This document shows positions 2-22,824 of a DNA stretch of 27,854 nt, one piece after another. Every line of letters begins with the position of its first letter. The first letter of the stretch is position 1. The stretch lies in the IMG/VR virus record IMGVR_UViG_3300048590_000398, positions 1 through 27,854 of that record; one strand, 5' to 3'. A program made the position numbers and the translations under genes. The notes beneath the pieces were generated by a model that did not search any database, was not told the origin of the DNA, and worked only from the letters and a program-made list of their open reading frames with translations. The DNA comes from a virus.

Positions 2-1474
2 CGTCAGCGCACCGAACCCGGAACCTGGCAGGAGTGGATTGTCGAGAACTTCGCCGGCTACCTCTGGCCGCCGTATGCGGCCTACCACGAGCAGTTCTGG
101 CAGTGGGCCTGGGCGATCGAAGCGGGCGCGCCGGCTCGGCCGTTCGTCGCCATCTGGCCGCGCGGCTTCGCGAAGAGCACCAGCACCGAAGTCGCCTGCG
201 CCATGGTCGCGGCCCGGCAGACGCGCCGGTACGGGCTCTACATCTGCGCCACCCAGGAACGGGCCGACGATCACGTCAAGAACGTCGGCGGCTTGCTCGA
301 ATCGCGCACCTTCTCGCAGCACTACCCGGCCGCCTCGCAGCGGAAGCTGGGCAAGTACGGCAACGCCGCCGGCTGGCGCCGGAACCGGCTGCGGACGGCG
401 AGTGGCTTCACCCTCGACGCGATCGGGCTCGATACGGCGGCGCGCGGGGCCAAGATCGACGAGGACCGGCCGGACTTCCTCATTTTCGATGACATCGACG
501 GCCTGCTCGATGCGCCGGGCACCGTCGAGAAGAAGATCGCCACCATCACGCAATCGCTGCTGCCATCGCGGGCCGCGCACGCCGCGGTGCTCGTGGCGCA
601 GAACCTGATCCACGAGCATGGCATCGTGTCGCGGCTCGCCGATGGCCGCGCCGACTTCCTCGCCGACCGCATCGTCTCGGGGCCGCATCCCGCCATTCGC
701 AACCTGGTGACCGAGCAGCGGGGAGGCAAGGCCATCATCAGCCACGGGGAACCGACCTGGCCGGCGATGGGGATCTCGGCGCTGCAAGCCGAGCTCAACG
801 AGATCGGGCTGACCGCCTTCCTGCGCGAAAAGCAGCACGAGGTGGGAAACGTTGAGGGCGGCATCTTCGGCCATCTCAGCTTCCGGCACTGCGCCTGGGA
901 CGAACTGCCGCCGCTCGAGCGGATCGTGGTCTGGGTCGATCCCGCCGTCACCGATACCGACCGCTCGGACGCGCACGGCATCCAGGCGGACGGGCTGGCG
1001 GCGGACGGGACGATCTACCGGCTCTTCTCGTGGGAGGCCCGCACGTCGCCCGATGATGCGCTGACCCGGGCCCTGCGCAAGGCGCTGGAGCTCAAGGCGG
1101 AATGCGTCGGCGTGGAGACCGATCAGGGCGGTGACACGTGGAAGAGCACCTATGCCGGCGTGGTGGAGCAGCTGCGGGCCGCGGGCGAGCTAGGCCGCAA
1201 GGAACGAGCGCCGCAGTTCCGGCAGGACAAGGCCGGGGCGGGGCACGGCCCGAAAGCCCACCGCGCCTCGCAGATGCTAGCCGACTACGAAAAGGGCCGC
1301 ATCGTGCATGTGATCGGCACGCACGAGACGCTGGAGCGGGCGCTCAAGCGCTACCTGCTGATCAAGCCGTACGACCTGGTCGATGCCGCCTTCTGGAGCT
1401 GGCACGATCTGCGGCACGGGACGCCGGTCAAGATCGCCCCCACGGTCCTCGTCTCGCCGTCGGTGTGGCGCTGA
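2..1474 (+). CDS. terL: Phage terminase large subunit (5' end beyond window)
   Basis: This is the ATPase/nuclease motor that packages DNA into the prohead. The frame is open from base 2, so the true start lies upstream of the window. A Walker A-like motif (WPRGFAKST, about nt 152-180) precedes a Walker B motif with its catalytic acidic pair (DFLIFDDID, about nt 473-499). A C-terminal RNase H-like nuclease follows, with the first metal-binding aspartate in WVDPAVTD (about nt 929-952) and a second acidic cluster at VETDQGGD (about nt 1117-1140). The order ATPase then nuclease is that of large terminases. The stop overlaps the start of the next gene as TGATG, so the two are probably translationally coupled. 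The small terminase subunit, if present, is outside the window. Confidence 0.93.
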   Translation, partial: RQRTEPGTWQEWIVENFAGYLWPPYAAYHEQFWQWAWAIEAGAPARPFVAIWPRGFAKSTSTEVACAMVAARQTRRYGLYICATQERADDHVKNVGGLLESRTFSQHYPAASQRKLGKYGNAAGWRRNRLRTASGFTLDAIGLDTAARGAKIDEDRPDFLIFDDIDGLLDAPGTVEKKIATITQSLLPSRAAHAAVLVAQNLIHEHGIVSRLADGRADFLADRIVSGPHPAIRNLVTEQRGGKAIISHGEPTWPAMGISALQAELNEIGLTAFLREKQHEVGNVEGGIFGHLSFRHCAWDELPPLERIVVWVDPAVTDTDRSDAHGIQADGLAADGTIYRLFSWEARTSPDDALTRALRKALELKAECVGVETDQGGDTWKSTYAGVVEQLRAAGELGRKERAPQFRQDKAGAGHGPKAHRASQMLADYEKGRIVHVIGTHETLERALKRYLLIKPYDLVDAAFWSWHDLRHGTPVKIAPTVLVSPSVWR

Positions 1475-1671
1475 TGGCGACGGCGGTGGTGTTGCGGCCA
1501 TTCGCCTGTCCGTCGTGCGGCCGGCTGGCCGGCTTCACCGATCGCGCGAGCGGATACGTTCGGGTCTATTGCAAGCAGTGCCGGCAGACGGTGCTCATCA
1601 AGATCACGGGGGAGCCCGTGGTGCGACCGAGCGGGCGGCGGATTGAGGACGATGTCGTATACTGCGAATGA
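1474..1671 (+). CDS. Com-like small zinc-binding protein
   Basis: A 65-residue protein with two CxxC pairs, C12/C15 and C33/C36 (CPSC and CKQC), spaced like the zinc site of the phage Mu Com protein, and with the same pattern of basic and aliphatic residues after each pair. Com binds an RNA stem-loop in the mom leader and activates its translation. No mom-like gene is visible here, so the target is unknown. The start overlaps the terminase stop (TGATG). The final codons (V-V-Y-C-E) contain a TATACT -10-like hexamer, and a strong hairpin follows 14 bases after the stop. It is the first of four small zinc proteins that end gene blocks in this prophage. Family assignment is by motif only. Confidence 0.7.
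   Translation: MATAVVLRPFACPSCGRLAGFTDRASGYVRVYCKQCRQTVLIKITGEPVVRPSGRRIEDDVVYCE
1658..1663 (+). promoter_or_regulatory. Putative -10 element (TATACT), module 1
   Basis: TATACT lies inside the last codons of the upstream zinc-protein gene. No TTGACA-like -35 is found 16-18 bases upstream. It is supported mainly by recurrence: similar hexamers stand at the same place before hairpins in the other gaps. Confidence 0.45.
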
Positions 1672-1684
1672 GCAGGGCCATGCA

Positions 1685-1722
1685 CGGGCCAGCACCTCGT
1701 CCGAGGTGCTGGCCCGTTTTTG
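1685..1722 (+). terminator. Perfect hairpin with T-tract, module 1
   Basis: A 15-base arm (1685-1699) is exactly complementary to 1702-1716 and is followed by TTTTTG. It has the form of an intrinsic terminator, yet lies only about 20 bases after the putative -10 and just before the ribosome binding site (GGAGG, 1737-1741) of the next gene. It may end the upstream block, attenuate the downstream one, or be a protein-binding leader hairpin. The bases before it (gggccatgca) recur in module 2. Confidence 0.8.
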
Positions 1723-1748
1723 TTTGCGAGTGACGTGGAGGATTCATC

Positions 1749-2177
1749 ATGGCATCGGGCACGTTCGCCTGGTACGGGCAGGGGCTTCTGCGCATCGTCA
1801 ACGGCGAGATCGACATGAACGCGCACACCTTCAAGGCCGCACTCGCCTCCAGCTCCTACACTCCGAACCAGGACACGCATGACGATTGGGCCGACGTGAG
1901 CGCCAACGAAGTCACCGGCACCAACTGGGCCGCCGGCGGCCAGACGCTCTCGATCACGACGGGCATCGACACGGCCAACAACCGCGTCTCCTTCACCGCG
2001 ACGGACATCAGCGTGGCGAGCGTCACCCTCAGTGACGGCAAGCACCTGGTCATCTACGACGACACGCACGCGAGCAAGGCGCTGGTGGGTTACGTGACGT
2101 TCGACACGCCGCTGGCCCCGAGTGCCGGCACGCTGGCCGTGGACTTCGGGACGGAGATCGGGCGGATTACCTACTAG
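1749..2177 (+). CDS. Phage structural protein, small beta-rich
   Basis: A 142-residue protein preceded by GGAGG seven bases before the ATG. It opens with a short segment followed by phrases (FKAALASSSYTPNQDTHDDW, then NEVTGTNWAAGG) that recur in a family of small phage structural proteins found near head or tail-fibre genes of many siphoviruses. The rest is rich in Thr, Ser, Val and Asp, as in beta-sandwich virion proteins, and has no signal peptide or membrane segment. It is the first gene after module 1 and precedes further small surface-type proteins, so a head-fibre or decoration role is plausible. The exact role is inferred from composition and place. Confidence 0.6.
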   Translation: MASGTFAWYGQGLLRIVNGEIDMNAHTFKAALASSSYTPNQDTHDDWADVSANEVTGTNWAAGGQTLSITTGIDTANNRVSFTATDISVASVTLSDGKHLVIYDDTHASKALVGYVTFDTPLAPSAGTLAVDFGTEIGRITY

Positions 2178-2226
2178 GCCGCTCGGCGGTGATCCATGCG
2201 TGCCGGCGGACCAGGGACGATCCATC

Positions 2227-2577
2227 ATGGCGGTGCAGACCATCGAATACCTGACGATCGGATGGGACGCCGGCACGCAGCGGCCGGTCTGCTCCGTGTG
2301 GTTGGCGTATGACGACAGCACGCTGGCCCTGGTCTCGGTGCGGGTGGTCAATGCGTCCGACGATACCAGCGTGTCGTTCGTGCTGACCGATCACGCCCGC
2401 GCGCCCGGTCACCCCAGGCGGGAGACGACCCTGACAATCACGCCGGGGCGTGACGAGACCGCGGCCCCGCGCGGGCTGACCGTGACCCGCGACGAGACGG
2501 ACGCGCTGGTCGTGCCGGGCTACTCGTTGCACGTGACCGGCCCACCGACGCGCACCGATCCCCGGCGGGTGCGCTGA
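2227..2577 (+). CDS. Hypothetical phage protein, 116 aa
   Basis: The ATG at 2227 is chosen because upstream codons in this frame cross the previous gene's end and look non-coding. The protein alternates polar and hydrophobic residues (VCSVWLAYDDSTLALVSVRV, VSFVLTD), as expected of a small beta-sandwich. A basic, Pro-rich tail follows (PPTRTDPRRVR). There are no cysteine motifs, membrane segments or known catalytic motifs. It ends in a TGATG overlap with the long repetitive protein, so the two are probably co-translated and may be parts of the same surface structure. I do not recognise the family. Confidence 0.6.
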   Translation: MAVQTIEYLTIGWDAGTQRPVCSVWLAYDDSTLALVSVRVVNASDDTSVSFVLTDHARAPGHPRRETTLTITPGRDETAAPRGLTVTRDETDALVVPGYSLHVTGPPTRTDPRRVR

Positions 2578-4586
2578 TGCCGGTCGCCGTTGATGCGGTC
2601 ACGACCGCCATTTCCCCCGGTGCAAACGTCACCTCCCTGAGCTGGTCACACACCTGCTCGGGGAGTGACCGCTATCTCATCGTCGCGGCGCGCTACTCCA
2701 GCGGCGCCGGCACGGTGGGAGCCACCTATAACGGCGTGGCGATGACGCCGCTGACCTCGGTTGGCAGCCGGCTCTATGTCTACGTCCTGCTCAATCCCCC
2801 GGCCGGGACCTACACGGTCCAGACCACGAACACCATCGGCCGGGACGTGGTCGGCGGCGCGGTGTCACTGAACGGCGTGGATCAAACGACACCGATTGGC
2901 ACGCCCACGGCGACCACGCCGGCCGCCTTCACGGCAACCATTTCCGATGCCGTGAGTTCAGCCACCGGGGAGCTGGTGATCGGTCTCGCGTCGAACAGCG
3001 GCAATACGACTGGCACCCTCACCTCGGTCGGCAGCGGGCAGACGGAACTGGCCGAGCAGCCAAACATCTCCGGCAACGCGACATCTATGTGGCTCTCGTC
3101 CAAGCCAGGCGACGCCACCACGACGCTCTCCTGGACGTATGACAGCGGCACCTGGTCGAATCCGATGATCTCGCTCGTGCCCGTCAAACCGTCTGCGGGC
3201 GGGTCTGACGCCAGCGCATCCGTGACCGTCGGCAGCGCGGCTGCCTCGGGGCTGAACGTCACCGCCACCGCGCAGCGATCGGACACCGGCGCCGCCGCCG
3301 TCGGATCGGCCACCGGCTCCGGATTGAGCGTGGCCGCCACGGCGGGCCAGCAGGCGAGCGGCACCGTCACCGTGGGCGGCGCACCAGCGGACGGAACGAC
3401 CGTCACCGCCGCCGGGGCGATCGCCGCCAGCGCCACCGTCACCGCCGGCCCCGCGGCAGCCACCGGCTTCACGGTCACGGCCGGAACCGGCACGACCGGC
3501 AGCGTCACGAACGACGACGCGGCGGCGTCCGGGCTGATCGTGACCGCGACGGCCGGGCAACAGGCGACCGGGCTGGTCAGCGCCGGCACGGCCACGGCGG
3601 ACGGCCTCGCGGTCACGGCGTCAACGGCGGTCACCGCGACCGGCACCGTCGCCGTGGGGGAGGCGGTCAGCACTGGCCTCGGCGTCAGCGGATCGAGCGG
3701 CGCGACCGGGGCGGTCATGGTTGGCCACGCGACGGCAGACGGCCCCGCCGTGTCCGCCACGGCGGGCACTGGGGCCAGCGCCACAATCACGCCCGGTGAT
3801 GTCGTCGCATCGGGCCTCATCGTCACCGGGCGCACCAGCGCGGATGCCGCGATCACCGTGGGCACCGGCGCTGCCTCCGGTCGCAGCGTCGCGGCCACCG
3901 CCGGTGCCGGCGCAAACGGCACGGTGTCCATGGGCGACCTCGCAGCGTCCGGCCTGAGCGCCACGGCGACCACTGGCACGACCGGCGCTGTGACGGCTGG
4001 GGGTGCCGCCGCATCCGGCCTGCTGATCGCGGCGAGTGTGGGCGGAGCGGTGCAGGGTGTGGTGCAGACCGGCCCAAGCGCGGCCGCCGGCCTGAGCGTC
4101 ACGGCATCGGCCGGAACCAGCGCATCGGTGATCGCAGGCGCCGCGGCGGCGGACGGCGCGGCGGTGAGCGCGGGCATCAGCGCCGGGGCGGTCGCAAGCG
4201 TTGGCACGGCGATGGGAACCGGCCTGGTCGTGGTCAGCAGCGCAGGCGCCGCTGGTGCGGTCAGCCCCGGGGCCATCACGGTAACCGGGGTGCTGATCGA
4301 GGCGGGCGTGGGAACGACCGTCACGATCAGCACCCCGGCCGCAATCGTCGCCGATGGCATCACGGTAACGGCGGATGGGGCGGTGTTCATTCCGGCGACG
4401 GGATCGCTCACCGCCACGCTGCGCACCACCGCGCACCTCACGGCGTCGATGCACACGGATGCGGCCGTTCGCTCGGTGGTGACGGTCGCGCCTGCGTTGC
4501 ACGGCGCCGTTGCCATCGCTGATGCGCTCACCGCTACCGTTGGCACTGATCGCGCGCTGCGCGCCATGCTGGAGGTTCTTCCATGA
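2577..4586 (+). CDS. Repetitive fibre-like virion protein
   Basis: A 669-residue protein in three parts. Residues 1-205 form a globular, beta-rich domain containing LIVAARYSSGAGTVGATYNG and repeated VG, SG and TS turns. About residues 211-600 are roughly 17 degenerate repeats of 20-23 residues with the pattern (T/A)VTVGxAAASGLxVTATAG. A short Ala/Thr-rich tail closes the protein. Such low-complexity beta repeats suit a fibre, a head spike or a surface-binding protein. It lies before the portal, away from the tail-tip genes, so a head-attached fibre is more likely than a tail fibre. The start overlaps the previous stop and the end overlaps the next start (ATGA). No family is assigned with certainty. 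Confidence 0.65.
   Translation: MPVAVDAVTTAISPGANVTSLSWSHTCSGSDRYLIVAARYSSGAGTVGATYNGVAMTPLTSVGSRLYVYVLLNPPAGTYTVQTTNTIGRDVVGGAVSLNGVDQTTPIGTPTATTPAAFTATISDAVSSATGELVIGLASNSGNTTGTLTSVGSGQTELAEQPNISGNATSMWLSSKPGDATTTLSWTYDSGTWSNPMISLVPVKPSAGGSDASASVTVGSAAASGLNVTATAQRSDTGAAAVGSATGSGLSVAATAGQQASGTVTVGGAPADGTTVTAAGAIAASATVTAGPAAATGFTVTAGTGTTGSVTNDDAAASGLIVTATAGQQATGLVSAGTATADGLAVTASTAVTATGTVAVGEAVSTGLGVSGSSGATGAVMVGHATADGPAVSATAGTGASATITPGDVVASGLIVTGRTSADAAITVGTGAASGRSVAATAGAGANGTVSMGDLAASGLSATATTGTTGAVTAGGAAASGLLIAASVGGAVQGVVQTGPSAAAGLSVTASAGTSASVIAGAAAADGAAVSAGISAGAVASVGTAMGTGLVVVSSAGAAGAVSPGAITVTGVLIEAGVGTTVTISTPAAIVADGITVTADGAVFIPATGSLTATLRTTAHLTASMHTDAAVRSVVTVAPALHGAVAIADALTATVGTDRALRAMLEVLP
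3207..4379 (+). repeat. About 17 tandem degenerate coding repeats
   Basis: Direct repeats of about 60-69 bases inside the fibre-like gene encode units of the form (T/S)VTVGxAAASGLxVTATAG. The unit is clear in protein but diverged in DNA. The spacing is even, and each unit carries a VG-x-A-x-A-x-G-L core. Confidence 0.75.
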
Positions 4587-4873
4587 GCACGTACTACCCG
4601 GGCGTCACCATCCGGGCCACGGTTGCCGATCTCACCCACATCGATAACGGCGCGATCGAGATGGGCGAGGCGACGGTGACCTTCACCCTCTACGATCGAA
4701 CTGGGGCGGTCGTGGACACCGGGAGTGGCACGCCAGATACCGATGATTGGTCCTTTGATTTCAACCTGCCGGCCACGCCGGGCACCTATCGGCTGGTCGC
4801 CGAAGCAGTGCTCACGGACGGCACCACCACCTGGAAGGGGCGCGAACAGATCATCGTTTCGCGCCTGCCGTAA
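4583..4873 (+). CDS. Small Ig-like phage protein
   Basis: A 96-residue protein whose ATG overlaps the previous stop (ATGA). Alternating strands (VTIRATVADLT, ATVTFTLYDRTGAVV, GTYRLVAEAVLTDGTTTWKG) and the absence of cysteines suggest a single immunoglobulin-like or invasin-like beta-sandwich. Such domains are common on phage capsids and fibres, where they bind weakly to surfaces. It follows the repetitive protein directly and may be part of, or attach to, the same appendage. It ends 12 bases before the portal start, with the portal's ribosome binding site (GGAG) between them. The fold is inferred from pattern alone. Confidence 0.6.
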   Translation: MSTYYPGVTIRATVADLTHIDNGAIEMGEATVTFTLYDRTGAVVDTGSGTPDTDDWSFDFNLPATPGTYRLVAEAVLTDGTTTWKGREQIIVSRLP

Positions 4874-4885
4874 GGAGCCCGAGCC

Positions 4886-6959: not shown

Positions 6960-6968
6960 TGCTAAACT
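6960..6968 (+). promoter_or_regulatory. Putative extended -10 (TGC TAAACT), module 2
   Basis: A TGnTAAACT extended -10 motif lies 26 bases after the MuF-like stop. No good -35 is visible. The following bases share gggccatgca with module 1. Confidence 0.5.
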
Positions 6969-6990
6969 GACATGTGAAAAGGGCCATGCA

Positions 6991-7027
6991 TGGGCCAGCG
7001 ACTCCACTGGAGTCGCTGGCCCATTTT
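6991..7027 (+). terminator. Perfect hairpin with T-tract, module 2
   Basis: A 15-base arm (6991-7005) is exactly complementary to 7009-7023, with a three-base loop and TTTT after it. The lower arm begins with the same GGGCCAGC as in module 1, so the two modules look related by duplication. The ribosome binding site of the next gene (TGGAG, 7031-7035) follows within five bases of the T-tract. Confidence 0.8.
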
Positions 7028-7040: not shown

Positions 7041-8756
7041 ATGGCAGACGACGACTTCACCCTCAGCGACGACGACCGCGCGGCGATCCTGGCCCAGCTT
7101 CGGCAGGCGATGGGCCGCGGCGTCGCCGTGCCGAATGACCAGCTGCCGAACGCACTTCACCTCGCCGAGGGCGCCTACACCGGGCTGCTGGTGGCGTTGT
7201 GGCTGGACGACGCCACCGCGGCCGCCCTGGCGCAACCAGGCGGGGAACCACCTGAGAACCTGCACATCACCCTGGCCATCGTGCCCGACTTGGCCACGGC
7301 CGATGACTTGACCTTTGCCCGCATCGTCGGGGCGGTCGATGACATCGCCGCCTACCACGTGCCGTTGACCGGCACGATCGGCGGGCATGGGCGGTTCTTC
7401 GGCGGGGACGATGGCGACGTCATCTACGCCGCGCCCGATGTGCCGGCGCTTGCCGAGCTGCGGCAGGCCATCGTGGAGCATCTTGGATACGCCGGTGCCC
7501 GCGTCAGCACCGAGCATGGCTTCACGCCGCACATCACGCTCGCCTATGTCTCAGACGGCACCGAGCTCACGCCGGAGCTCGCCGATCTGCCGTTGCGCTT
7601 CACCGACATCGTGGTCATCGCGGGCGAGCGTCGCGTCGCGATCCCGCTGCGCGGCATGGCCGACGGCATGGTCTACGCCGAACCGATCCGCGACCATGCC
7701 GGCATTCGGCTCGTCCGGCCCCGCACGTTCACGGCGGCCAGTGCGTGGGTGCAGTTCCTGCCCCCGCCGGGCACGTACAGCCATGCGGTCTTCGGGACGC
7801 TCGACTTCACGGCCGAGAAGTACGCGGCGATCGTCGCCAACTTCAGCGCCAACACCTACGGGCAGGATCTGCCCATCAACGTCGAACACGACTACCGCTC
7901 GGCCGGGGCGGTCGGCTGGATCCGCGAGATGCGTCTCGGGGAGGACGGCTCGATCGAGGTCCGCCCGGAGTGGAATGACCGGGGCCGCGAGCTGATCGCC
8001 GGCGACCGCTTCCGCTACGTCTCCGCCGAGATCTACGACCAGTGGCAGGACCCGGTCACCGCCGAGTTCCACGACAACGTGGCGGTCGGCATGGCGATCT
8101 GTGTCCGCCCGCATTTCAAGACGGACGTTCTCCGGCCGCTGGCGGCCAGCGAAACCGGGGCGTTGGATGATCAGGCCGGGGCAGCCCGGCAGGAGGGTAC
8201 TGGCGTGTCTGACGCCAAGAACCAGCAGCCGCCAGCGGCATCGCCGCCGGTCACGCTTACCGAGGCCGAGATTCGCGAGTATCGCGAGCTCAAGCCGAAG
8301 TACGAGGCGACGGTCACGGAACTGGCCGAGGCCAAGACGACGATCACCGCCCAGGAGGGGCGCATCGCCTCGCTCGAGACCGCACAGCGGACGCAGCGCT
8401 TTACCGCGCTGGTCAAGGGTGCGGACGGCGGCCCGCGCTGGTTCGGGGATCTCCCCGGCCACGTGGCGATGCTCAACGATCTGGCGCAGGCGTTCGGTGA
8501 GGACTCCGAGCAGGTCACGCGCTACATCACGACGAACACCGAGCAGGCGAAGCAGGTGGCGGCGTCCGGGCTCTTCTCGGCGACGGGCACGGGCGCCGGC
8601 GGCGACGGTGATGCGGCCAAGACCGCGCTCGAGCAGATCGACGCCAAGGCGCGCGTCTACGCCGAGGCGAACGCGGTCAGTCATGCCGTGGCGTTTACCC
8701 ACGTGCTGGAAACCGACCGCGAGCTGGCCGCGGCCTACGCGAAGGAACGCAACTAG
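7041..8756 (+). CDS. 2H phosphoesterase fused to Mu I-like protease and scaffold
   Basis: A 571-residue polyprotein. Residues about 45-205 form a 2H phosphoesterase domain with both signature motifs, H75-I-T77 (LHITL) and H164-I-T166 (FTPHITLAYV). Residues about 225-375 match the Mu I prohead protease family: a conserved INVEHDYRSAGAVGWI block with H283, then FRYVSAEIYD. From about 390 to the end is an Ala/Glu-rich coiled coil typical of a scaffold. Mu I cleaves the scaffold and head proteins during maturation. The 2H domain cleaves cyclic or 2'-5' phosphodiester bonds in known members. ATG 7041 is chosen over in-frame ATG 6990 because it has GGAG before it and 6990 lies inside the module-2 hairpin. 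The fusion is unusual. Confidence 0.8.
   Translation: MADDDFTLSDDDRAAILAQLRQAMGRGVAVPNDQLPNALHLAEGAYTGLLVALWLDDATAAALAQPGGEPPENLHITLAIVPDLATADDLTFARIVGAVDDIAAYHVPLTGTIGGHGRFFGGDDGDVIYAAPDVPALAELRQAIVEHLGYAGARVSTEHGFTPHITLAYVSDGTELTPELADLPLRFTDIVVIAGERRVAIPLRGMADGMVYAEPIRDHAGIRLVRPRTFTAASAWVQFLPPPGTYSHAVFGTLDFTAEKYAAIVANFSANTYGQDLPINVEHDYRSAGAVGWIREMRLGEDGSIEVRPEWNDRGRELIAGDRFRYVSAEIYDQWQDPVTAEFHDNVAVGMAICVRPHFKTDVLRPLAASETGALDDQAGAARQEGTGVSDAKNQQPPAASPPVTLTEAEIREYRELKPKYEATVTELAEAKTTITAQEGRIASLETAQRTQRFTALVKGADGGPRWFGDLPGHVAMLNDLAQAFGEDSEQVTRYITTNTEQAKQVAASGLFSATGTGAGGDGDAAKTALEQIDAKARVYAEANAVSHAVAFTHVLETDRELAAAYAKERN
8205..8756 (+). CDS. Nested scaffold protein, internal in-frame start
   Basis: A GTG at 8205, in frame with the protease gene, has a strong Shine-Dalgarno sequence (AGGAGGG, 8191-8197) seven bases upstream. 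It would yield a 183-residue protein consisting only of the Pro/Ala linker and the coiled-coil scaffold. In phage Mu, the scaffold Z is likewise made from an internal start in the protease gene I. An internal start gives more scaffold than protease, which matches their roles. What is seen is the start signal; that it is used is inferred from the Mu precedent. Confidence 0.6.
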   Translation: MSDAKNQQPPAASPPVTLTEAEIREYRELKPKYEATVTELAEAKTTITAQEGRIASLETAQRTQRFTALVKGADGGPRWFGDLPGHVAMLNDLAQAFGEDSEQVTRYITTNTEQAKQVAASGLFSATGTGAGGDGDAAKTALEQIDAKARVYAEANAVSHAVAFTHVLETDRELAAAYAKERN

Positions 8757-12429: not shown

Positions 12430-13437
12430 ATGGGCACGAACGAGGTCATCCTCCTCAAAGCGCAGGCGGGAATTGAAACGACGCGGGCCACGAACGTTGC
12501 CGCCACGCGCAAGATCTACGCGCAGATCAACCCGACCTACAACAAGCCGATCCAGCAGTTCCAGGACACGACCGGCAGCTACTTCGACCGACGGCGCATC
12601 GCCTACGGGCTCGAAGAGATCGGGTTCACCGGACTCGACCTGGCGACCTTCGAGGACCTGCCCTGGTGGGCGCAGCTCTTCCTGAAAGGCGGCGTCACCG
12701 GCGTGACCGATGCCGGCACCCCGCCGGCCTACACCTATGCGTTCGCCCCGACGGCGAGCAGCGACGACCTGAAGTCGATCACGCTGGAGTTCAACGAGTC
12801 GGGCAATCCCTACGAATCCGGGCAGGTGATGGTCACGCAGGCCACCCTGCGCTTCAACGTCGGCAACAATAACGAGCCGGCCTGGATGCTCGACCTGACC
12901 CTGATGGGCCGGGACTGGCAGACGACCACCTTCACCGCCGCCCTCTCCGACCGCGACACCGAGGTCATTCTCGGGCGCGGCACCAAGCTCTTCATTGACA
13001 ACGCCGGCGGGACGATGGGCGCCACGCAGGTGCTCGGCAAGCTGATCAGCGCGTCGGTGACGTTCAACCCGAACATCCACTTCAAGAACTTCTCGGAGGA
13101 CGAGACCAGCTACGCGGCCAACAAGGTCGGGCGCGGGGCCTACCACGTCGATGCGCAGTTCCAGTTCGAGTTTGATGACGACGACGAGTTCGCCAACTAC
13201 CGCAGCGCCACCCCGGTCAAGCGCCTGATCAGGCTGCAACGCGAGGGGACGACGATTCACACGACCGTCAAGAAGCGGATGCGGCTCGACTTTCCGGCCA
13301 TGTACTGGAGCAGCTGGAGCCGGGGCGACCGGAACGGCAACCTGATCGCCACCTTCGGCGGGCAGGCCTTCTATGACACGGGCGAGGCGAACATCGTCGA
13401 GCTCGAGATCGTCAACGCGCTGGCCAGCCTCGTCTAA
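12430..13437 (+). CDS. Major tail tube protein
   Basis: A 335-residue protein in the tube position, after the terminator gene and before the chaperones and tape measure. Alternating beta strands (SDDLKSITLEFNESG, QVMVTQATLRFNVG, KLISASVTFNPN) and the repeated NP-type turns suit the tube fold. It is longer than minimal tube proteins (about 200 residues), so it may carry an extra surface domain. The tube forms the hollow shaft through which DNA passes. The stop overlaps the start of the second zinc protein as TAATG. The function rests mainly on order and beta pattern. Confidence 0.8.
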   Translation: MGTNEVILLKAQAGIETTRATNVAATRKIYAQINPTYNKPIQQFQDTTGSYFDRRRIAYGLEEIGFTGLDLATFEDLPWWAQLFLKGGVTGVTDAGTPPAYTYAFAPTASSDDLKSITLEFNESGNPYESGQVMVTQATLRFNVGNNNEPAWMLDLTLMGRDWQTTTFTAALSDRDTEVILGRGTKLFIDNAGGTMGATQVLGKLISASVTFNPNIHFKNFSEDETSYAANKVGRGAYHVDAQFQFEFDDDDEFANYRSATPVKRLIRLQREGTTIHTTVKKRMRLDFPAMYWSSWSRGDRNGNLIATFGGQAFYDTGEANIVELEIVNALASLV

Positions 13438-13658
13438 TGAGCCGGTCGGTGTGGCGGTGCAAGACCAGCGGCTGCGCCGGGATGCTCGGCGGGGTGGATC
13501 GCTACAGCAAGGCGTTCCGCCCCGCACAGGGCGTGACGGCGATCGTCCATGGGGTGAGCGTCACGCTCGTGTGCCCGCTCTGTGGCCGGCCACGTGTCTT
13601 CAAGGGCTTCGAGGCCCAGTTCACGCCGCAGCGGGTGTATACTGGTCCCAACAACTGA
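13437..13658 (+). CDS. Small zinc-ribbon protein (second copy)
   Basis: A 73-residue protein with C8-x4-C13 and C46-P-L-C49, followed by a basic/aromatic R-x-R-V-F segment. The same plan (C-x4-C, about 32 residues, CPxC, then V/R-R-x-F/W) is found in the genes at 14562 and 22621, so the three are likely paralogues; the gene at 1474 is a shorter, more Com-like relative. The likely role is nucleic-acid binding, but this is inferred. The start overlaps the tube stop (TAATG). The last codons (R-V-Y-T) contain TATACT of module 3, as V-V-Y-C does in the first copy. Confidence 0.65.
   Translation: MSRSVWRCKTSGCAGMLGGVDRYSKAFRPAQGVTAIVHGVSVTLVCPLCGRPRVFKGFEAQFTPQRVYTGPNN
13638..13643 (+). promoter_or_regulatory. 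Putative -10 element (TATACT), module 3
   Basis: TATACT lies inside the 3' end of the zinc-protein gene, 15 bases before its stop, with no recognisable -35. A second, weaker A/T-rich candidate (GGATAAT) lies near 13670-13676. Confidence 0.42.
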
Positions 13659-13684
13659 TGACGCTGGGTGGATAATTTGATGAG

Positions 13685-13733
13685 GCCGCCGGCACTGGAG
13701 CGCACCGTAAGGGCGCTCGGTCCGGCGGCTGTT
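13685..13733 (+). promoter_or_regulatory. Two-part leader hairpin, module 3
   Basis: The outer stem pairs GCCGCCGG (13685-13692) with CCGGCGGC (13722-13729). An inner stem pairs GAGCGC (13698-13703) with GCGCTC (13713-13718). GTTT follows, a weak T-tract. The outer stem and the flanking tga...ctgttt resemble module 5. It may be a weak terminator or a regulatory leader. Confidence 0.65.
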
Positions 13734-14410: not shown

Positions 14411-14565
14411 GCGTTGATGTTCGGGGGCTGCGGCCGTGGGAGTGGGCGGCGATGGACGCCCATGACTACTACCGGATTCTGGAGATCCGGCGAGCGTGGA
14501 CGGAGGGGCAGCAGGACTATCGCGCCGCGACGGACGAGGCGAAACGGCAAGGCACGGCGGGATGA
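13763..14565 (+). CDS. Tail assembly chaperone, -1 frameshift product
   Basis: Reading shifts back one base at GGGTTTC (14278-14284) and continues in the other frame to 14565, giving a 267-residue fusion. The second-frame part (FPDLPDEVAWALSVDVRGL, then PWEWAAMDAHDYY and a charged helix) reads like a real domain, whereas the same bases in frame 0 do not. This corresponds to lambda GT. The extension ends in an ATGA overlap with the third zinc protein, which supports that it is translated. That the shift happens is inferred from the signal and codon pattern; the frequency is unknown. Confidence 0.72.
14278..14325 (+). promoter_or_regulatory. Programmed -1 frameshift signal
   Basis: The heptamer G-GGT-TTC (14278-14284) fits X-XXY-YYZ in the chaperone's frame. 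A perfect 10-base stem (14288-14297 with 14316-14325, 18-base loop) starts three bases later, a possible pausing structure. The spacing is a little shorter than usual. Confidence 0.72.
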
Positions 14566-14786
14566 CCATCAAGAGCGCGTACCAATGCCAGAATCGTGAC
14601 TGCCGGGTGACGCTCGGTTGGGTGCTGTCACGCGGCGAGCGACTGAAGGTGCGTGAGGGGGTCTTCGCCGAGGACGCCGGGCCGGTGTGCCTGGTGCGGT
14701 GCCCGTCGTGCAGGGCGGTGCGGACCTTCGTGGCGCTGCGCGATGAGGCGAAACAGCCCAACGTTCCCGCAAAAATGGTAAAATAA
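14562..14786 (+). CDS. Small zinc-ribbon protein (third copy)
   Basis: A 74-residue protein with C9-x4-C14 and C47-P-S-C50, then V-R-T-F. It shares this plan with the copies at 13437 and 22621 (CPxC followed by x2-V-R-T-F/W in this and the last copy). Likely a nucleic-acid-binding zinc ribbon. The start overlaps the end of the frameshifted chaperone (ATGA), which requires that frame to be translated for coupling. The final codons (K-M-V-K, stop) contain the TAAAAT of module 4, again placing a -10-like hexamer on the 3' end of a zinc-protein gene. Confidence 0.68.
   Translation: MTIKSAYQCQNRDCRVTLGWVLSRGERLKVREGVFAEDAGPVCLVRCPSCRAVRTFVALRDEAKQPNVPAKMVK
14776..14784 (+). promoter_or_regulatory. 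Putative extended -10 (TGG TAAAAT), module 4
   Basis: TGGTAAAAT covers the last codons of the third zinc gene. The region is A-rich for this genome. No -35 is seen. Confidence 0.48.
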
Positions 14787-14788
14787 AA

Positions 14789-14826
14789 GGGCGTCGGAAT
14801 TGCGGCCCGACGCCCAGCACCGTTTT
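14789..14826 (+). terminator. Hairpin leader, module 4
   Basis: GGGCGTCGG (14789-14797) pairs exactly with CCGACGCCC (14807-14815) across a nine-base loop. TTTT follows seven bases later (14823-14826), so it is a weaker terminator than modules 1 and 2. It lies four bases after the -10. Confidence 0.68.
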
Positions 14827-14844
14827 GCGACATGGAAGACAACG

Positions 14845-15714
14845 ATGCCCTCACAGCCTACATCCTCCAGTGAACGAATGTGCAAAGGCTGCGGCGTGGT
14901 TCTCGTGCGACGCCCCAAGGAGATGCCGTCCGTATTTGCAACACGCCTATTTTGCAGCTATCCGTGCTCGGCCGAATACAGGGGTCGCAACCTTCCGCAG
15001 TCGAAAGCGTGTGTGATCTGTGGCGAACACTTCTCTCGACGCGATGGGCAAGGCGCGTCAACGTTCCGGCGGAAACAAACCTGCTCATTTGACTGCCAGC
15101 GAGTTTACATGTCGAACCGGCAGAAGGACGTGAATCCCGCATACGTGCCGCCGCCGAAACGGTGCGAGGTGTGCCGGAAGTGGTTTGCGAAACGAAAAGA
15201 GGAGTCGCATCCCACATATCTGGCGAAACGAACCTGCTCCAGAAAGTGTGCGGCAAAACGCTTGGAAGGGTGGCGCAAAGACTATCCGCCTCGTGAGTGC
15301 CCGATCTGCCATACCATGTTTGAGCGAAGAGCCGACGAACGGGCAGGGAACTGGAATCGTCGGTTGACGTGCTCGATCACGTGCCAGGCCCGCCTCATGG
15401 TGCAGGTCCGCAACCTGGGTGTTGGTGAGCGATCATCGGCCTATCCCTATCAATGGACGAGCGGGAATGGCCGACAGCTACGGGAGTGGATTCGGGAGCG
15501 CGATCAGCGAATCTGCCAAGTGTGTGGAGCAACGGAAGGGGCGAAGGTTCATGCGGTTCACCATATCGACTACGAAAAGGACAACATCAACCCATCAAAC
15601 CTCATAACACTCTGCCACCCATGCCACGGTAAGACAAACCATGACCGGTGTTTCTGGCAAGCGTTCTTCGAGCAGTTCATGGCCGAACGGAGCGATGCGG
15701 AGCGCGCCGCCTAA
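14845..15714 (+). CDS. HNH endonuclease with tandem zinc knuckles
   Basis: A 289-residue protein. Four zinc units of about 45 residues come first: C13/C16/C37/C41, C56/C59/C80/C84, C107/C110/C131/C135 and C152/C155/C176/C180, each C-x2-C...C-x3-C. A C-terminal HNH nuclease follows, with C224/C227, H239-H240, N249, C257/C260-H261 and H266. HNH enzymes cut DNA with one metal ion. Base composition is clearly less GC-rich than the neighbours and codons differ, which points to a recent insert, perhaps a homing-type nuclease between chaperone and tape-measure genes. The ATG 14845 has GGAAG upstream; a TTG at 14800 would start inside the hairpin. Confidence 0.85.
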   Translation: MPSQPTSSSERMCKGCGVVLVRRPKEMPSVFATRLFCSYPCSAEYRGRNLPQSKACVICGEHFSRRDGQGASTFRRKQTCSFDCQRVYMSNRQKDVNPAYVPPPKRCEVCRKWFAKRKEESHPTYLAKRTCSRKCAAKRLEGWRKDYPPRECPICHTMFERRADERAGNWNRRLTCSITCQARLMVQVRNLGVGERSSAYPYQWTSGNGRQLREWIRERDQRICQVCGATEGAKVHAVHHIDYEKDNINPSNLITLCHPCHGKTNHDRCFWQAFFEQFMAERSDAERAA

Positions 15715-16036: not shown

Positions 16037-16067
16037 GCGATTCCACACAAAGCCGGGAATGCTCCCG

Positions 16068-16076
16068 TGATACACT
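16068..16076 (+). promoter_or_regulatory. Putative extended -10 (TGA TACACT), module 5
   Basis: TGATACACT stands before the tape-measure leader. No -35 is seen; the upstream bases instead hold the divergent TATAAT. Confidence 0.5.
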
Positions 16077-16102
16077 CAGGGCAGATTAGGCAGGACGTGA
16101 GG

Positions 16103-16145
16103 GCCGCCGATCTACGTCATTCGGACGTAGACGGCGGCTGTTTTT
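16103..16145 (+). terminator. Hairpin with T-tract, module 5
   Basis: A 15-pair stem with one bulge: GCCGCCG (16103-16109) with CGGCGGC (16132-16138), and CTACGTC (16112-16118) with GACGTAG (16124-16130). TGTTTTT follows. It resembles module 3 in its outer stem and stands in the tape-measure leader. Confidence 0.78.
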
Positions 16146-16167
16146 GTGGCCGCCATGAAAGCGAACC

Positions 16168-18555: not shown

Positions 18556-18556
18556 C

Positions 18557-20848
18557 GTGAAGATTCTTTCCTTCCGGGGGGTCACGTTCGCGCCGGATTT
18601 CTGGGTGGGCGTGACCAACGAGAACGCGCGGGGACGGTGGGCGGTGATCCCGCAGATCGCTGCCCGGCGCAACGACATGGGCGAAATCACCGGCACCACC
18701 ATCAGTGACCGGCCGATCGCCTGCCAGATCGGGCACACCGGCGCCGGCAGTCACGAGGATGCCTTCTATGGGCTGCTCGGCGCGCTCAACCCGCTCGATC
18801 CGGAACCGGGGGAGCTCGTGATCGAGCTCAACGACGGGGTGACGCAGCTGGCGTGTCAGGCGCTGATCGTCACGCCCGGCGAGCAGGCGATCGACGGCGA
18901 GGTGAACACCATCGCCGTCACCTTCCTGACCACCGATCCGATGTGGCGGGCCCTGACCGAAACGACCGAAGCCCCGGTCAGCGTGGCCAAGGGGAGCTAC
19001 GGCGGGTATGACGACGTGACGATTGACGGCGACGCCCCGGTCCATGGCACGGTGCGCCTGACGCCGACGGCGGCGGACCAGCAGGTGACGGTCCGGACCT
19101 TTTCGATCACCAACAACGGCAGTCACCCGCTGGTCAACTTTCCGGTGCGGGTCGATCTCGGCAACACCTACGACGGCACCGCGCATCCGTCGTTCTACTT
19201 CGCGCTGCTAAAAGACGGCGTGCGGCAGCGGATGCAGCTGATCAACCAGTACGGGCGGAATATCGCCTACCTCTGGCTCGTGGTCGATCACCTCGCGCCG
19301 GGCGACACCGCGGACTACACCCTGCTCCTCTCCGACACCTACCTGATGCCGGGCACCGCCTTCAATTCCTACACCCAACCCGCCTTTGACACGCAGTACG
19401 AGGTGCGGACGGTGGTGGCCGGGCCGGGTGCTACCACCGTGCACAGCATCACCGGCGTCTCCTGGGAGACTAACCAGTGGCGCGGCGGCGTCATGCGCGC
19501 CCTGACCGGCACGCAGGCCGGGGTCGAGCGGGAGATCACGGCCAGCACCGCCGCCGGCCTGACGACGGCGGCCTTTCCGGGGGCGGTGGCCGGCGGCGAG
19601 AGCGTGCTGATCACCCTCTCGAGTAACGGCAAATGGGTCTACCCCGTGCGGCAGACGGAGCGCAACGACAGCCGGCGCGGGCTCTGGTGGATCAACCAGG
19701 GGCAGAAGGCCCCCGGCGATGCCCGCTTCGACGTGCCGGGCGCGTGGGCGCCGTACCTGTATATCGACAACGACGATGTCAAGAACCAGGCGGACTGGAC
19801 GGCGGTCAACGTGGGGACGGTGGACTACTTCGCCATCCTCGACGCGGACCGTTCGTTCCCGGGCGGGTCGTCGGTGCTCGACAACGGCGCGGACGGGGTG
19901 AGCCTGACGATGCCGTTCCCGATCACCGGGCTGCGGCTCACCTACCAGTTCAAGAACCCGAACGGGATGGCGACCTTCGTCGTGGGGAGCCGGGAAGCGG
20001 GCGGGGCGCTCGGCTTCATCCACGAGTACACCGACACGGCGCAGCTGACGACCCTGACCAACCGGAGCGAGCAGACCCTGACCCTGACCGCCGAGACCAT
20101 CCAGCTCTACCTCGGGCTGATTCCGACCACGATCGGCAACCAGGTGCAGGATGAGATCGGCGAGCGCTGGGCCGGGGACGACGGCACCGCCACGAGCGGA
20201 TCGACCACGCAGCTCAACGACAACACGAAAGAGTGGATTGCCGATCAGTGGATCGGGGCGTCGGCGCGGATCATCTCCGGCACCGGGGCGGGGCAGGAAG
20301 CGGCCATCACCGACAACGGCACCAACAATCTCACCGCCTCGTTCGCCACGGCCCCGGATTCGACCAGCCGCTACGTGATCCGGCAGAAGCGGGGTATGGT
20401 GGCGACCGCGCGAACCAACGACCGGCTCGAAGTGACGTGGGACGCCAGCGCCCTCACGATCAGCACCCCCACGGCCCCGGTGAGCGGCTACCTCCTCAAC
20501 CGGACCCTCTATCTCGACCGGGACACGGCGAGCAGCAATCCGCCGTACCAGCGGTTCCAGTTCGACCCCGACGATACGAGCCGCTACATCGTCCTGACGA
20601 GCGGCGAGACGTTCGTGATCGATGGGGCGCAGCAGCGCGCATGGATCGAAAACGGCGGCGGCGTGGAGCTGCGGAACGTGCCGCCGCGCGCGCTGCTGGT
20701 GCATGACGTGGAGGCGGACGGCACCGAACGCCTGGCCGAGCGGTGGCTGTGGCTGACGCCGGGCACGCACGATCTGAAGCTCGCGGCGAAGACCGATGGC
20801 AACACGTACGATCTCGCCCTCGCGTACACGCCGGCGGTCTTCGGCTGA
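18557..20848 (+). CDS. Distal tail (Dit-like) protein with added domains
   Basis: A 763-residue tail-tip protein. GTG 18557 is chosen because upstream in-frame codons lie inside the tape measure, and it leads straight into KILSFRGVTF, a usual Dit start. The first 150 residues (N-terminal Dit-like ring domain) end with a segment typical of tube-tip proteins (IAVTFLTTDPMWRALTET). Residues about 185-300 (TFSITNNGSHPLVNFPVRVD and YLWLVVDHLAPGDTADYTLL) form a DUF2341-like beta domain. The rest is beta-rich and may bind carbohydrate. A Dit ring joins the tube to the baseplate. The stop overlaps the next start (TGATG). Length is above the family's usual 250-300. Confidence 0.75.
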   Translation: MKILSFRGVTFAPDFWVGVTNENARGRWAVIPQIAARRNDMGEITGTTISDRPIACQIGHTGAGSHEDAFYGLLGALNPLDPEPGELVIELNDGVTQLACQALIVTPGEQAIDGEVNTIAVTFLTTDPMWRALTETTEAPVSVAKGSYGGYDDVTIDGDAPVHGTVRLTPTAADQQVTVRTFSITNNGSHPLVNFPVRVDLGNTYDGTAHPSFYFALLKDGVRQRMQLINQYGRNIAYLWLVVDHLAPGDTADYTLLLSDTYLMPGTAFNSYTQPAFDTQYEVRTVVAGPGATTVHSITGVSWETNQWRGGVMRALTGTQAGVEREITASTAAGLTTAAFPGAVAGGESVLITLSSNGKWVYPVRQTERNDSRRGLWWINQGQKAPGDARFDVPGAWAPYLYIDNDDVKNQADWTAVNVGTVDYFAILDADRSFPGGSSVLDNGADGVSLTMPFPITGLRLTYQFKNPNGMATFVVGSREAGGALGFIHEYTDTAQLTTLTNRSEQTLTLTAETIQLYLGLIPTTIGNQVQDEIGERWAGDDGTATSGSTTQLNDNTKEWIADQWIGASARIISGTGAGQEAAITDNGTNNLTASFATAPDSTSRYVIRQKRGMVATARTNDRLEVTWDASALTISTPTAPVSGYLLNRTLYLDRDTASSNPPYQRFQFDPDDTSRYIVLTSGETFVIDGAQQRAWIENGGGVELRNVPPRALLVHDVEADGTERLAERWLWLTPGTHDLKLAAKTDGNTYDLALAYTPAVFG

Positions 20849-21843
20849 TGGCCGCCCGCATCCTGATCAGCGACATCGGCGGCGGGAACGAACAGCGCCT
20901 CCCCACGAACGGGATTAGCCGGAGCTGGGCGGTCGAAACGCCGGGCACGCTCTCGGCGGAGCTTCTGACCGAGACACTGGTGCAGGCCGGGCTGACCCAG
21001 CCGAAAGGCAGGTGGGTGCGGGTGGAGGCCAACGATGTCGGGACCTGGGCCGGGGTCGTGCAGGAAACGCAGCCCCGCGACGACGGCACCACCGAACTGA
21101 CCGCCACCGACTGGCGCATCCTGCTCAGTGACCGCCGCCTGTCGCGGCGCGCGCGGCCGCTCTTCGGCCCGCCCGGCACCCTGGCGCTGGCGGCGCTGGC
21201 CGATGCCGAGCGGCACGGGCCGGTGTGGGTGCGGGACCGCACCGCCGACGAGACCGGGCAGCCGGTCGAACTGCGGCTTGACGGGCAGACGCTCGGCTCG
21301 GCGCTCGACGGCCTCGCCCGGGCATCCGGCGCCGAGTGGCGGATCGATCCCGACACCATGGCCTTCAGCTGGGGCCGGAGCGGCACGGACCGTTCCGCCA
21401 CGCGGCAGCTCGTCGCGCCCCGGCACATCGTCTCGTATACCCTGCCCGATTCGATTGCCCCGGTGATCAACGACCTGCTGGTCTACGCGCTCGATGACCG
21501 GACCGAGCTGCGGCGGGCCGTGCGGGTCGAGAACGTGGCCTCGATTGCCGCGCACGGGCGCCGACAGGACGAAACGGTGCTGGCCATGCCGGGCAGCGTG
21601 ATTGCGCTGCGGCCGGCCGCGCAGGCGCTGGTCAACCGGCTGGCCTATCTGGGACAAACCTTCGAGGCGCAGCTGGTCAACGTCGATCGCTGCTTCGGCT
21701 GGGTGCGGGAGGGGGACACGATCGCCTGCCTGCTGCCCGGGAATAACCAGCAGGTGACGGTCCGCATCATGGCGCGGTCACTGAGTGAGCCGGACGGCAT
21801 CATGGCCGTCTCCGGGATCGTCACGGATCGGAGGATCGGGTGA
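20848..21843 (+). CDS. Tail hub / tail-associated protein
   Basis: A 331-residue protein following the Dit-like gene, the usual place of the tail hub (Tal, gp27-like). It has a beta-barrel-like N-terminus (GISRSWAVETPGTLSAELLT, VRVEANDVGTWAGVVQETQP), a central LDGQTLGSALDGLARASGAEW helix typical of hub proteins, and a C-terminal strand pair ending in a DRR-type motif. A hub trimer caps the tube and often carries cell-wall hydrolase or adhesion domains; none is obvious here. It overlaps its neighbours by TGATG at both ends. Role inferred from order and pattern. Confidence 0.65.
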   Translation: MAARILISDIGGGNEQRLPTNGISRSWAVETPGTLSAELLTETLVQAGLTQPKGRWVRVEANDVGTWAGVVQETQPRDDGTTELTATDWRILLSDRRLSRRARPLFGPPGTLALAALADAERHGPVWVRDRTADETGQPVELRLDGQTLGSALDGLARASGAEWRIDPDTMAFSWGRSGTDRSATRQLVAPRHIVSYTLPDSIAPVINDLLVYALDDRTELRRAVRVENVASIAAHGRRQDETVLAMPGSVIALRPAAQALVNRLAYLGQTFEAQLVNVDRCFGWVREGDTIACLLPGNNQQVTVRIMARSLSEPDGIMAVSGIVTDRRIG

Positions 21844-22376
21844 TGCGGCGCAATCCGCCCACGCTGGTCAACCCGGATGATGTGGTCACCGCGGCCACCG
21901 ACCAGCAGCTCGGCATCACGCCCCGGCAGACGCTCGAAGACCGCCTCGCCGCCGTGGAACGGCTGCTGGTGCGGCAGGACGGCGTGCTCGCCCGGTTGCT
22001 GCGCGGCCTCGCGCCGGCCGTCCCGGCCATGCAGGCCGGACCGAACGGCCCGTCGACCATCGCCGTGCAGGCGGCGGCGGGATCGACGGCCACGGCCACG
22101 GTGACCGGCACCGATGACGAGGGCCTGATCGTGCTCACGCCGGGCGGTACCGGCATCACGACCGGCACGCAGGCCATCGTGACCTTCAAGCTCCCCCGAG
22201 CGAGCGCCAACTACACCGTCCATCTCCAGGCGTTCTCGGCGGCGGCCCGGACGGCGGGGGCGACCGTGGGCCCGGCCAGTCGCTCGGCGTCGAGCTGGCA
22301 GATCACCACCGGCACGGCGCTTTCGAGCGGATCCACCTATCAGTGGCTCTACCGCGTCGGAAAGGTGTACGGCTAA
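21843..22376 (+). CDS. Tail-tip protein, putative receptor-binding
   Basis: A 177-residue protein. ATG 21843 is chosen for the TGATG overlap; a GTG one codon upstream is equally possible. An N-terminal helical part ends in a coiled coil (LEDRLAAVERLLVRQDGVLA), followed by a beta-rich C-terminal domain (PSTIAVQAAAGSTATATVTG, ASANYTVHLQAFSAAAR, SGSTYQWLYRVG). A coiled-coil stalk with a small beta head is common in trimeric tail-tip or receptor-binding proteins. Stop and next start overlap as TAATG. No family is recognised with certainty. Confidence 0.6.
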   Translation: MRRNPPTLVNPDDVVTAATDQQLGITPRQTLEDRLAAVERLLVRQDGVLARLLRGLAPAVPAMQAGPNGPSTIAVQAAAGSTATATVTGTDDEGLIVLTPGGTGITTGTQAIVTFKLPRASANYTVHLQAFSAAARTAGATVGPASRSASSWQITTGTALSSGSTYQWLYRVGKVYG

Positions 22377-22624
22377 TGGGACGGCGGGAGGATCTGGCGG
22401 CGCGGCTGACGAGCCTGCAGGGCCCGAAGGACCGGGCGCTGGCGATTGGGCGCTGGGTGGCGCTCAACCGGGACGAGCTCATCGACGGCGCGCCGGCGGC
22501 GATCGTGCCCGCGCTGCTGGAAATCGAGAGAATTTACTATTCCGTGGAAGACGGGGTGGCTCCAGTGAGCGAACTCATCGCGGCGTTCCGGGCGGTCCGG
22601 GACGCGGTGCAGGCGCTGGCATGA
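22376..22624 (+). CDS. Small helical phage protein
   Basis: An 82-residue helical, moderately charged protein (REDLAARLTSLQGPKDRALA, ELIAAFRAVRDAVQALA) starting in a TAATG overlap and ending in ATGA with the fourth zinc protein. No membrane segment, cysteine or known motif. Its place between tail-tip genes and the zinc protein does not define a role. Confidence 0.6.
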   Translation: MGRREDLAARLTSLQGPKDRALAIGRWVALNRDELIDGAPAAIVPALLEIERIYYSVEDGVAPVSELIAAFRAVRDAVQALA

Positions 22625-22824
22625 ACGCCATGGTCTTGACCTGCGCGAATCCGGCCTGCCGGCTGCCCCTGGGCCGCTGGCGCCCGGAGACCGGGCACCT
22701 GACCAAGGCACGGGATGTGCGGGTGGTCTATGATCGGACGCAGCAGATCGCGCACCTCCAGTGCCCGGCCTGCGAGACGGTGCGCACCTGGCGCGCCGGT
22801 GGAACCAAGCGCCGTCGGTCGTAG
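22621..22824 (+). CDS. Small zinc-ribbon protein (fourth copy)
   Basis: A 67-residue protein with C8-x4-C13 and C48-P-A-C51, then V-R-T-W and a basic tail (GGTKRRRS). The spacing and the CPxC-x2-V-R-T-(F/W) end match the copy at 14562 most closely. The basic tail suits nucleic-acid binding. It starts in an ATGA overlap and is the last gene before module 6, as the other copies are before modules 1, 3 and 4. Here the -10-like TAAACT lies just after the stop rather than inside it. Confidence 0.68.
   Translation: MNAMVLTCANPACRLPLGRWRPETGHLTKARDVRVVYDRTQQIAHLQCPACETVRTWRAGGTKRRRS

Follow-up and report, generated by a model that had tools for sequence, protein, structure and literature searches.

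Small zinc-protein genes beside promoter-like boxes and hairpin leaders in the late region of a phage, with a tentative comparison to Com of phage Mu

The window analysed in this study, a linear IMG/VR virus record of 27,854 bases (IMGVR_UViG_3300048590_000398), is a phage fragment in which genes for a terminase, a minor tail protein, a portal, a major head protein and an amidase were recognised, and it harbors four small genes for putative zinc proteins next to hairpin structures. Z1 (1474-1671), located directly after the terminase gene, encodes a putative Com-like zinc-ribbon protein of 65 aa, and Z3 (13437-13658), Z4 (14562-14786), and Z6 (22621-22824) encode zinc proteins of 73, 74, and 67 aa, respectively, all on the + strand. 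A preliminary description of the sequence had listed four such Cys-pair genes of 65-74 residues, and all four open reading frames (ORFs) with their cysteine motifs are indeed present. The deduced products share a C-x2-C or C-x4-C motif followed by a C-x2-C motif and are basic (isoelectric points of 9.0-11.1). Since the start codon region of each zinc gene overlaps the stop of the upstream ORF, translational coupling is likely.

For the detection of modules, we used a strict scan (box TA[ACT][AC][AC]T, gap of 15-45 bases, hairpin with a free energy dG <= -25, T-rich tail), and a module was called canonical if box, hairpin, and U-run were followed by a gene. The scan revealed six modules on the + strand of the window (boxes at 1658, 6963, 13638, 16071, 22835, and 25990) and none on the - strand, while 40 dinucleotide shuffles of the + strand yielded a mean of 0.2 modules with a maximum of one. 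The hairpins start 18-40 bases after the box, display dG values of -25 to -37 kcal/mol, and run into a T-rich tail. Module M1 comprises a -10-like box TATACT (1658-1663) overlapping the end of Z1, a class-A element (GGCC-N7-GGCC with flanks, 1674-1693) in common with M2, and a hairpin (1684-1717, dG -33.0) followed by TTTTGTTTGC. M2 is built from a box TAAACT (6963-6968), a class-A element (6980-6999), and a hairpin with U-run (6990-7024, dG -33.0). The box of M3, TATACT (13638-13643), lies within the end of Z3 and is followed by a hairpin with T-rich tail (13684-13730, dG -36.8); a second TANNNT box, TAATTT, is found 35 bases beyond TATACT, and either could be the one used. M5 harbors a box TACACT (16071-16076) and a hairpin with T-rich tail (16102-16139, dG -28.9) in front of a 795-residue ORF, M6 a box TAAACT (22835-22840) and a hairpin with U-run (22871-22917, dG -36.0), and M7 a box TATACT (25990-25995) and a hairpin with T-rich tail (26014-26041, dG -25.3), all on the + strand. 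The preliminary description had counted eight modules, six of which are thus canonical. Its "module 4" (14779-14815, + strand), with a box TAAAAT at 14779 and a hairpin at 14789-14815, is the leader of an HNH endonuclease ORF and not canonical, as its hairpin lies 4 bases beyond the box and lacks an adjoining U-run, and the "module 8" of that description fails the scan.

Three of the six canonical leaders (M1, M3, and M6) are located directly behind a zinc gene. Measured from the end of the stop codon, the next box starts at -13 for Z1, -20 for Z3, -7 for Z4, and +11 for Z6. The earlier claim that a zinc gene ends the block before modules 1, 3, 4, and 6 therefore stands for M1, M3, and M6 (boxes at -20 to +11), with "module 4" dropping out of the canonical set. 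Based on a rough gene list and with independence assumed, the probability of finding all four zinc genes among the eight pre-module genes of the preliminary description (out of 37 genes) is about 0.001, and that of finding three or more among the six canonical pre-module genes is 0.01.

Scans with capsid, portal, and terminase led to four relatives, namely G001 (L002/L107/L108; 41.3 kb), G006 (L112/L117), G002 (L003), and G008 (L113/L118), as well as to further copies of the window virus (L110/L130, designated G007, and L131). G001 carries Z1 with M1, M2 without a zinc gene, Z3 with M3, and Z6, separated by an HNH gene (with a hairpin of its own) from M6, the hairpin of which is nearly identical to that in the window. 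G006 displays Z1 with M1 and zinc-free leaders at MP (before the portal gene), M2, and M0, and the 6.35 kb of G002 contain M2 without a zinc gene. In G008, Z1 is present and the contig stops about 13 bases after it. Altogether, Z1 and M1 occur together in three distinct phages, and the pairs Z3-M3 and Z6-M6 were found again in a second phage (G001), although the orthologues of Z1 and Z3 are only 36-53% identical. Z4, the HNH gene, and M5 are all three missing together from G001, which has only a - strand ORF at this site. All eight zinc-profile genes with sequence available downstream (four in the window, three in G001, and one in G006) are followed by a box and a hairpin at -20 to +28 bases, six of these being canonical and two HNH-type. 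Hence, the pairing expected in related phages by the preliminary description was observed, together with a possible Com relationship that profile comparison gave for Z1 only; hairpins without zinc genes do occur.

Both HNH genes (window 14800-15714, + strand, first possible start used; L107, - strand, about 1591-956) possess a 5' hairpin a few bases past a -10-like box, so that the geometry of "module 4" recurs in G001. In each phage, the HNH gene separates a zinc gene from the module that follows (Z4/M5 in the window and Z6/M6 in G001), a position that is a possible homing site, and in the window a small - strand ORF shares the interval between Z4 and M5 with the HNH ORF. We read Z4-M5 as an original pair split by the HNH insert, like Z6-M6 in G001. 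Two further observations concern single contigs. Compared with window positions 1658-1718, L110 (5983-6043) shows a T to G change in the 3' arm of the M1 hairpin, which alters its dG from -33.0 to -28.3 kcal/mol; this change, found in L110/L130 of the same virus, is either a natural variant or a sequencing error, and L131 has the base of the window. In L113 of G008, a Cys-pair ORF (1306-1446) matching neither zinc profile is accompanied by a TACGGT box and a weaker hairpin inside a 212-residue ORF.

Comparison of the zinc proteins with each other separated them into two groups. Z4 matched Z6 (34.6%, 28.1 bits) and Z3 (25.4%, 24.3 bits), direct comparison of Z3 with Z6 was not significant (15.4 bits), and Z1 matched none of the three; hhalign of the Z1 group against the Z3/Z4/Z6 group gave 14%. 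The four paralogues of the preliminary description are therefore reduced to three related genes, linked via Z4, and the separate Z1. Aligned with three Com proteins by hhalign, Z1 and its orthologues reached 81% (E 1.2e-5; 30 aligned zinc-ribbon columns), whereas P2 Ogr, used as a control, gave 4.7% with the Z1 group and 4% with the Z3/Z4/Z6 group. By profile, Z1 thus appears Com-like and distinct from Z3, Z4, and Z6, and only for Z1 was the earlier label "Com-like" retained. Among four Z1 members analysed with hmmscan, one hit the Com family at E 0.001, not the Z1 of the window, and the best Pfam Com score, 18.8 bits for Z1 of G008, lay below the curated cut-off of 22.9 bits. A search with Ogr_Delta (PF04606) matched Z4 weakly over its C-x4-C knuckle (13.6 or 17.4 bits; cut-off 26.3) and no other zinc protein. 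Predicted structures were modest (predicted local distance difference test scores of 67.6 and 73.2), and their best VIA Z values of 4.4-4.5 were obtained with small zinc domains, i.e., Sec23 and archaeal RNase P chains for Z4 and small ribosomal-subunit chains, which we take to be probably bL33, for Z1, where no function is indicated. A sequence search of the PDB with zinc proteins gave best E-values of only 0.54 and 0.083.

The boxes resemble -10 elements and the hairpins resemble terminators, and both are interpreted here as such, i.e., as predicted -10-type promoters and predicted terminators. The motif TA[ACT]ACT occurs at seven sites on the + strand of the window, six of which are module boxes, and with the G001 pieces (4/4) and G006 (2/3) included, 12 of 14 + strand sites coincide with module boxes; none was found on the + strand of G002 (L003), and the - strands of the window, the G001 pieces, G006, and L003 hold three sites. 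A sigma-70 promoter scan of the window resulted in no hits because no -35 element is present, so that the case for promoters is based on the -10 box and its position. An extended -10 (TGN) precedes 6 of 14 module boxes, compared with 4 of all 34 TANNNT boxes in the window (a count that also covers its module boxes), which is suggestive only. At gathering scores, a comparison of the window with Rfam gave no hit.

A class-A element, GGYC-N6/7-GGCC, is situated at the foot of the terminator-like hairpin in all eight M1, M2, and MP leaders and in none of the seven others, though the MP leader itself was found through this element. Its spacer is similar for M1 and M2 within one phage and differs among the window (ATGCAYG), G001 (AATTGTC), and the pair G006 (TCTGTT or TTTGTT) and G002 (TCTGTC), which suggests a phage-specific trans-acting partner. 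The first GGYC has two possible pairing partners, the foot of the hairpin and the region downstream of the U-run in which the ribosome site lies. The second option gives an outer stem, of which 11 of 12 pairs are retained in M2 between G006 and G002, with three double and two single changes (the M2 box of G002 is uncertain, and TAGAAT at L003:1970 was used). The M2 leader of the relatives thus appears able to fold over the ribosome site, with compensatory changes, and this folding is weak in the window phage. Over 15 leaders, base pairing between the part of the leader before the hairpin and the segment running from the U-run to slightly beyond the start codon exceeded that in shuffles with a combined p of 2.4e-4, a value that treats orthologues as independent and is driven by M2 of the three relatives G001, G006, and G002, by MP, and by the window's M6. 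In this duplex test, p values below 0.1 were obtained for M2 of G006 (0.002), G001 (0.008), and G002 (0.022), M6 of the window (0.032; its stem stops short of the start codon), MP of G006 (0.042), and M6 of G001 (0.093), followed by M7 of the window (0.12), M3 of G001 (0.16) and the window (0.31), M0 (0.63) and M1 (0.64) of G006, M1 of G001 (0.74), and M5 of the window (0.93). A longest-helix test of eight leaders gave 0.0005 for M2 of G006, 0.010 for M2 of G002, 0.057 for M1 of the window, and 0.082 for M2 of G001, and 0.77 for M2 of the window, 0.80 for M1 of G001, and 0.86 and 0.90 for M1 and MP of G006. As a separate observation, the 3' hairpin arm contains a Shine-Dalgarno-like AGGAGG or GAGAGG in M1 of G001 (L002 3131-3210) and in M1 and MP of G006 (L112 5775-5840 and 9923-10003), shortly upstream of the start codon.

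Of 48 terminase loci, four belonged to this family, three ran off the contig, and 41, including some near-duplicates and some with less than 700 bases after the gene, had neither Z1 (by profile) nor a module at the gene end. Eight of the 41 displayed loose Cys-pair matches unsupported by the zinc profiles, and in five (L138, L143, L148, L160, and L164) a box and hairpin matching less strict criteria were present 243-423 bases farther along. When the box definition was relaxed slightly, 35 module matches were counted outside the clade in 1.67 Mb (both strands, 153 loci), and the best zinc-profile match was L007 (E 0.0064). Searches for Z3 in viral contigs, for Z4 in phage records, and for the portal in genome contigs found none, and the capsid profile detected only two distant loci in genome contigs. 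Z1 gave weak matches to Vibrio and Shewanella phages in phage records (best E 0.08), and the Z6-pair profile found G001 alone. The pattern GGCCTCTGTYGGCC...TTT was located at four places among the IMG/VR matches listed, two of them being G006 and G002; the other two, in other contigs, are read as chance.

Some neighboring features of the window deserve mention. The first gene of block 2 (7041-8756) revealed a 2'-5' RNA-ligase/LigT-like domain fused to a Mu-like head protease. The 795-residue ORF after M5 has no match in PHROG and is taken for the tape measure gene due to its place and length. Another long ORF (2577-4586, 669 residues) appears repetitive by eye at the DNA level, with Ala/Gly/Thr/Val-rich units. 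At the right end (26800-27854), few good ORFs are followed by a reverse-strand ORF that looks nitrilase-like by eye (weak PHROG match, E 0.0056), and this part could be host sequence at the end of a prophage.

The nearest parallel to this arrangement is Com of phage Mu and the mom leader. According to a published study (PMC6483171), Com binds a short hairpin next to a structure that holds the start codon and inhibits translation. As with com and mom, a small zinc-ribbon protein gene lies just upstream of a structured leader, Z1 appears to have the zinc-ribbon core of Com, and the M2 leaders of the relatives seem likewise able to hide the start region, as in the mom leader. In Mu, com overlaps mom, and in B3 and Chuche it overlaps a gene annotated as a methylase, while the zinc genes described here end at a promoter-like box without overlapping the next gene, and unlike Mu, up to four of them are distributed between structural blocks, with Z3, Z4, and Z6 not being Com-like.

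Weighing all this, we tentatively prefer, as the best single reading though at slightly less than even odds, that the zinc proteins may be Com-like RNA-binding regulators of attenuated late leaders. The late region would be split into blocks, several of which would each be headed by a -10-type promoter and a structured leader, i.e., a strong hairpin with a U-run a short distance before the first start codon, and this leader would act as a brake on transcription and partly on translation. The zinc genes would be the last, translationally coupled genes of some preceding blocks, and their small basic zinc-ribbon products would most likely bind nucleic acid in the leaders, as Com does upstream of mom. 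Such binding would release the brake, so that later blocks would open as products of earlier blocks accumulate. One zinc protein could serve several leaders, and Z1 acting on both M1 and M2 would be the simplest case because these two share the class-A element. A more elaborate version seems unlikely to us, in which block-specific zinc-ribbon RNA regulators, each made with the last gene of its block, would bind the leader (or leader class) of the next block and relieve both termination and ribosome masking, forming a relay paced by proteins that would set the timing of the packaging, head, tail, and lysis genes. The stepwise chain through successive blocks envisaged in the preliminary description is possible but found no direct support, and no result ties one protein to one hairpin.

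Several results speak against Com-like regulation, the main doubts being zinc-free leaders, the non-Com nature of Z3, Z4, and Z6, and the missing Com motif. M2, M5, and M7 (6963, 16071, and 25990) are canonical and yet have no zinc gene directly before them, and the same holds for M2 in all four phages in which it was found (window, G001, G006, and G002) and for M0 and MP of G006. The Z3/Z4/Z6 group reached only 5.8% with the three Com proteins by hhalign, and Pfam Com (PF10122, Zn_ribbon_Com) was matched by no zinc protein of the window, G001, or G006. The binding motif published for Com of Mu, CC(N)2-3GAG in a hairpin loop before the start region, is missing in 13 of the 15 leaders, and its two occurrences lie late in the hairpin in M1 and MP of G006. 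In the window itself, the outer stem was not significant in the duplex test for M1 (p 0.32) and M2 (p 0.40). A short GGCC hairpin, formed by the pre-hairpin leader and the 5' arm of the terminator, barely exceeded shuffles (combined p 0.033 over 15 leaders, smallest single-leader p 0.05), and due to the weakness of this antiterminator pairing more weight was put on the M2 outer stem. Furthermore, a small Cys-pair ORF of G001 (L108, - strand, 14820-15044) matches neither zinc profile and has no box or hairpin after it. Finally, the carriers form one small clade, so that common ancestry by itself could account for a large part of the co-occurrence.

The zinc-free leaders (M2 in four phages, M7 of the window, and M0 and MP of G006) would be more readily understood if the leaders were attenuators opened by another factor, e.g., an antiterminator of the Q or RAT type or a modified RNA polymerase, with the zinc proteins sitting at block ends and serving, e.g., virion assembly. 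In lambdoid phages, the late promoter pR' is followed by a short leader, the terminator tR', and the late genes, with Q as antiterminator; the window displays the same order of promoter-like box, short leader, terminator-like hairpin, and late genes, though in six copies instead of one and with some leaders that may in addition mask translation. BglG/SacY-type systems use a ribonucleic antiterminator (RAT), a short hairpin overlapping the 5' arm of the terminator, and the short hairpin of GGYC-N6/7-GGCC overlaps it likewise, with weak energetic support. The overlap of the zinc genes with the stops of the preceding genes also agrees with this explanation. However, such a factor leaves unexplained why eight of eight zinc-profile genes directly precede a box and hairpin and why Z1 with M1, and Z4 with M5, are present or absent jointly, and we regard this explanation as rather doubtful, if worth serious attention.

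Alternatively, the zinc proteins could act on DNA rather than RNA, as activators of -10-only promoters. P2 Ogr and P4 Delta are small zinc proteins serving late genes, and a small zinc protein with a C-x4-C knuckle is reminiscent of Ogr (72 aa), although by our own reading the knuckle order is reversed in the window proteins. Promoters without a -35 element, zinc genes abutting the boxes, GGCC repeats about one helical turn apart, and the 17.4-bit Ogr_Delta match of Z4 would agree with this; but that score is under the Pfam cut-off, the Z3/Z4/Z6 group hardly aligns with P2 Ogr, and the M2 covariation points to RNA, which makes DNA activators improbable in our view. Quite unlikely, too, are selfish or moron-like cassettes of zinc gene and promoter-hairpin inserted at block boundaries like the HNH genes, with no regulatory link. 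That G001 has none of the three neighbors Z4, HNH gene, and M5, and that HNH genes occupy zinc-module junctions in both phages, would agree with such cassettes, yet Z1-M1 and Z3-M3 stay at the same boundaries despite the low identity of their orthologues, and a passive insert does not predict class-A elements common to M1 and M2 within a phage.

In cluster K mycobacteriophages, start-associated sequences (SAS) and extended start-associated sequences (ESAS) are repeated short elements, some with inverted repeats, before the start codons of many operons. Likened here by description only, they differ from the unit in the window, which includes a -10 box and a terminator-like hairpin with U-run. 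Among the open-licence papers listed, as judged by title and the opening of the abstract, none reports a phage in which promoter-hairpin leaders recur next to zinc genes. An action of the zinc proteins on these leaders, if true, would carry the Com-style control known from com-mom, and encountered here next to annotated methylase genes in B3 and Chuche, into phage structural operons, and the timing of late genes would be set by several small RNA-binding proteins and not by one master antiterminator. Even without a link to the zinc genes, a promoter-attenuator leader at several late blocks would be an unusual plan for a phage.

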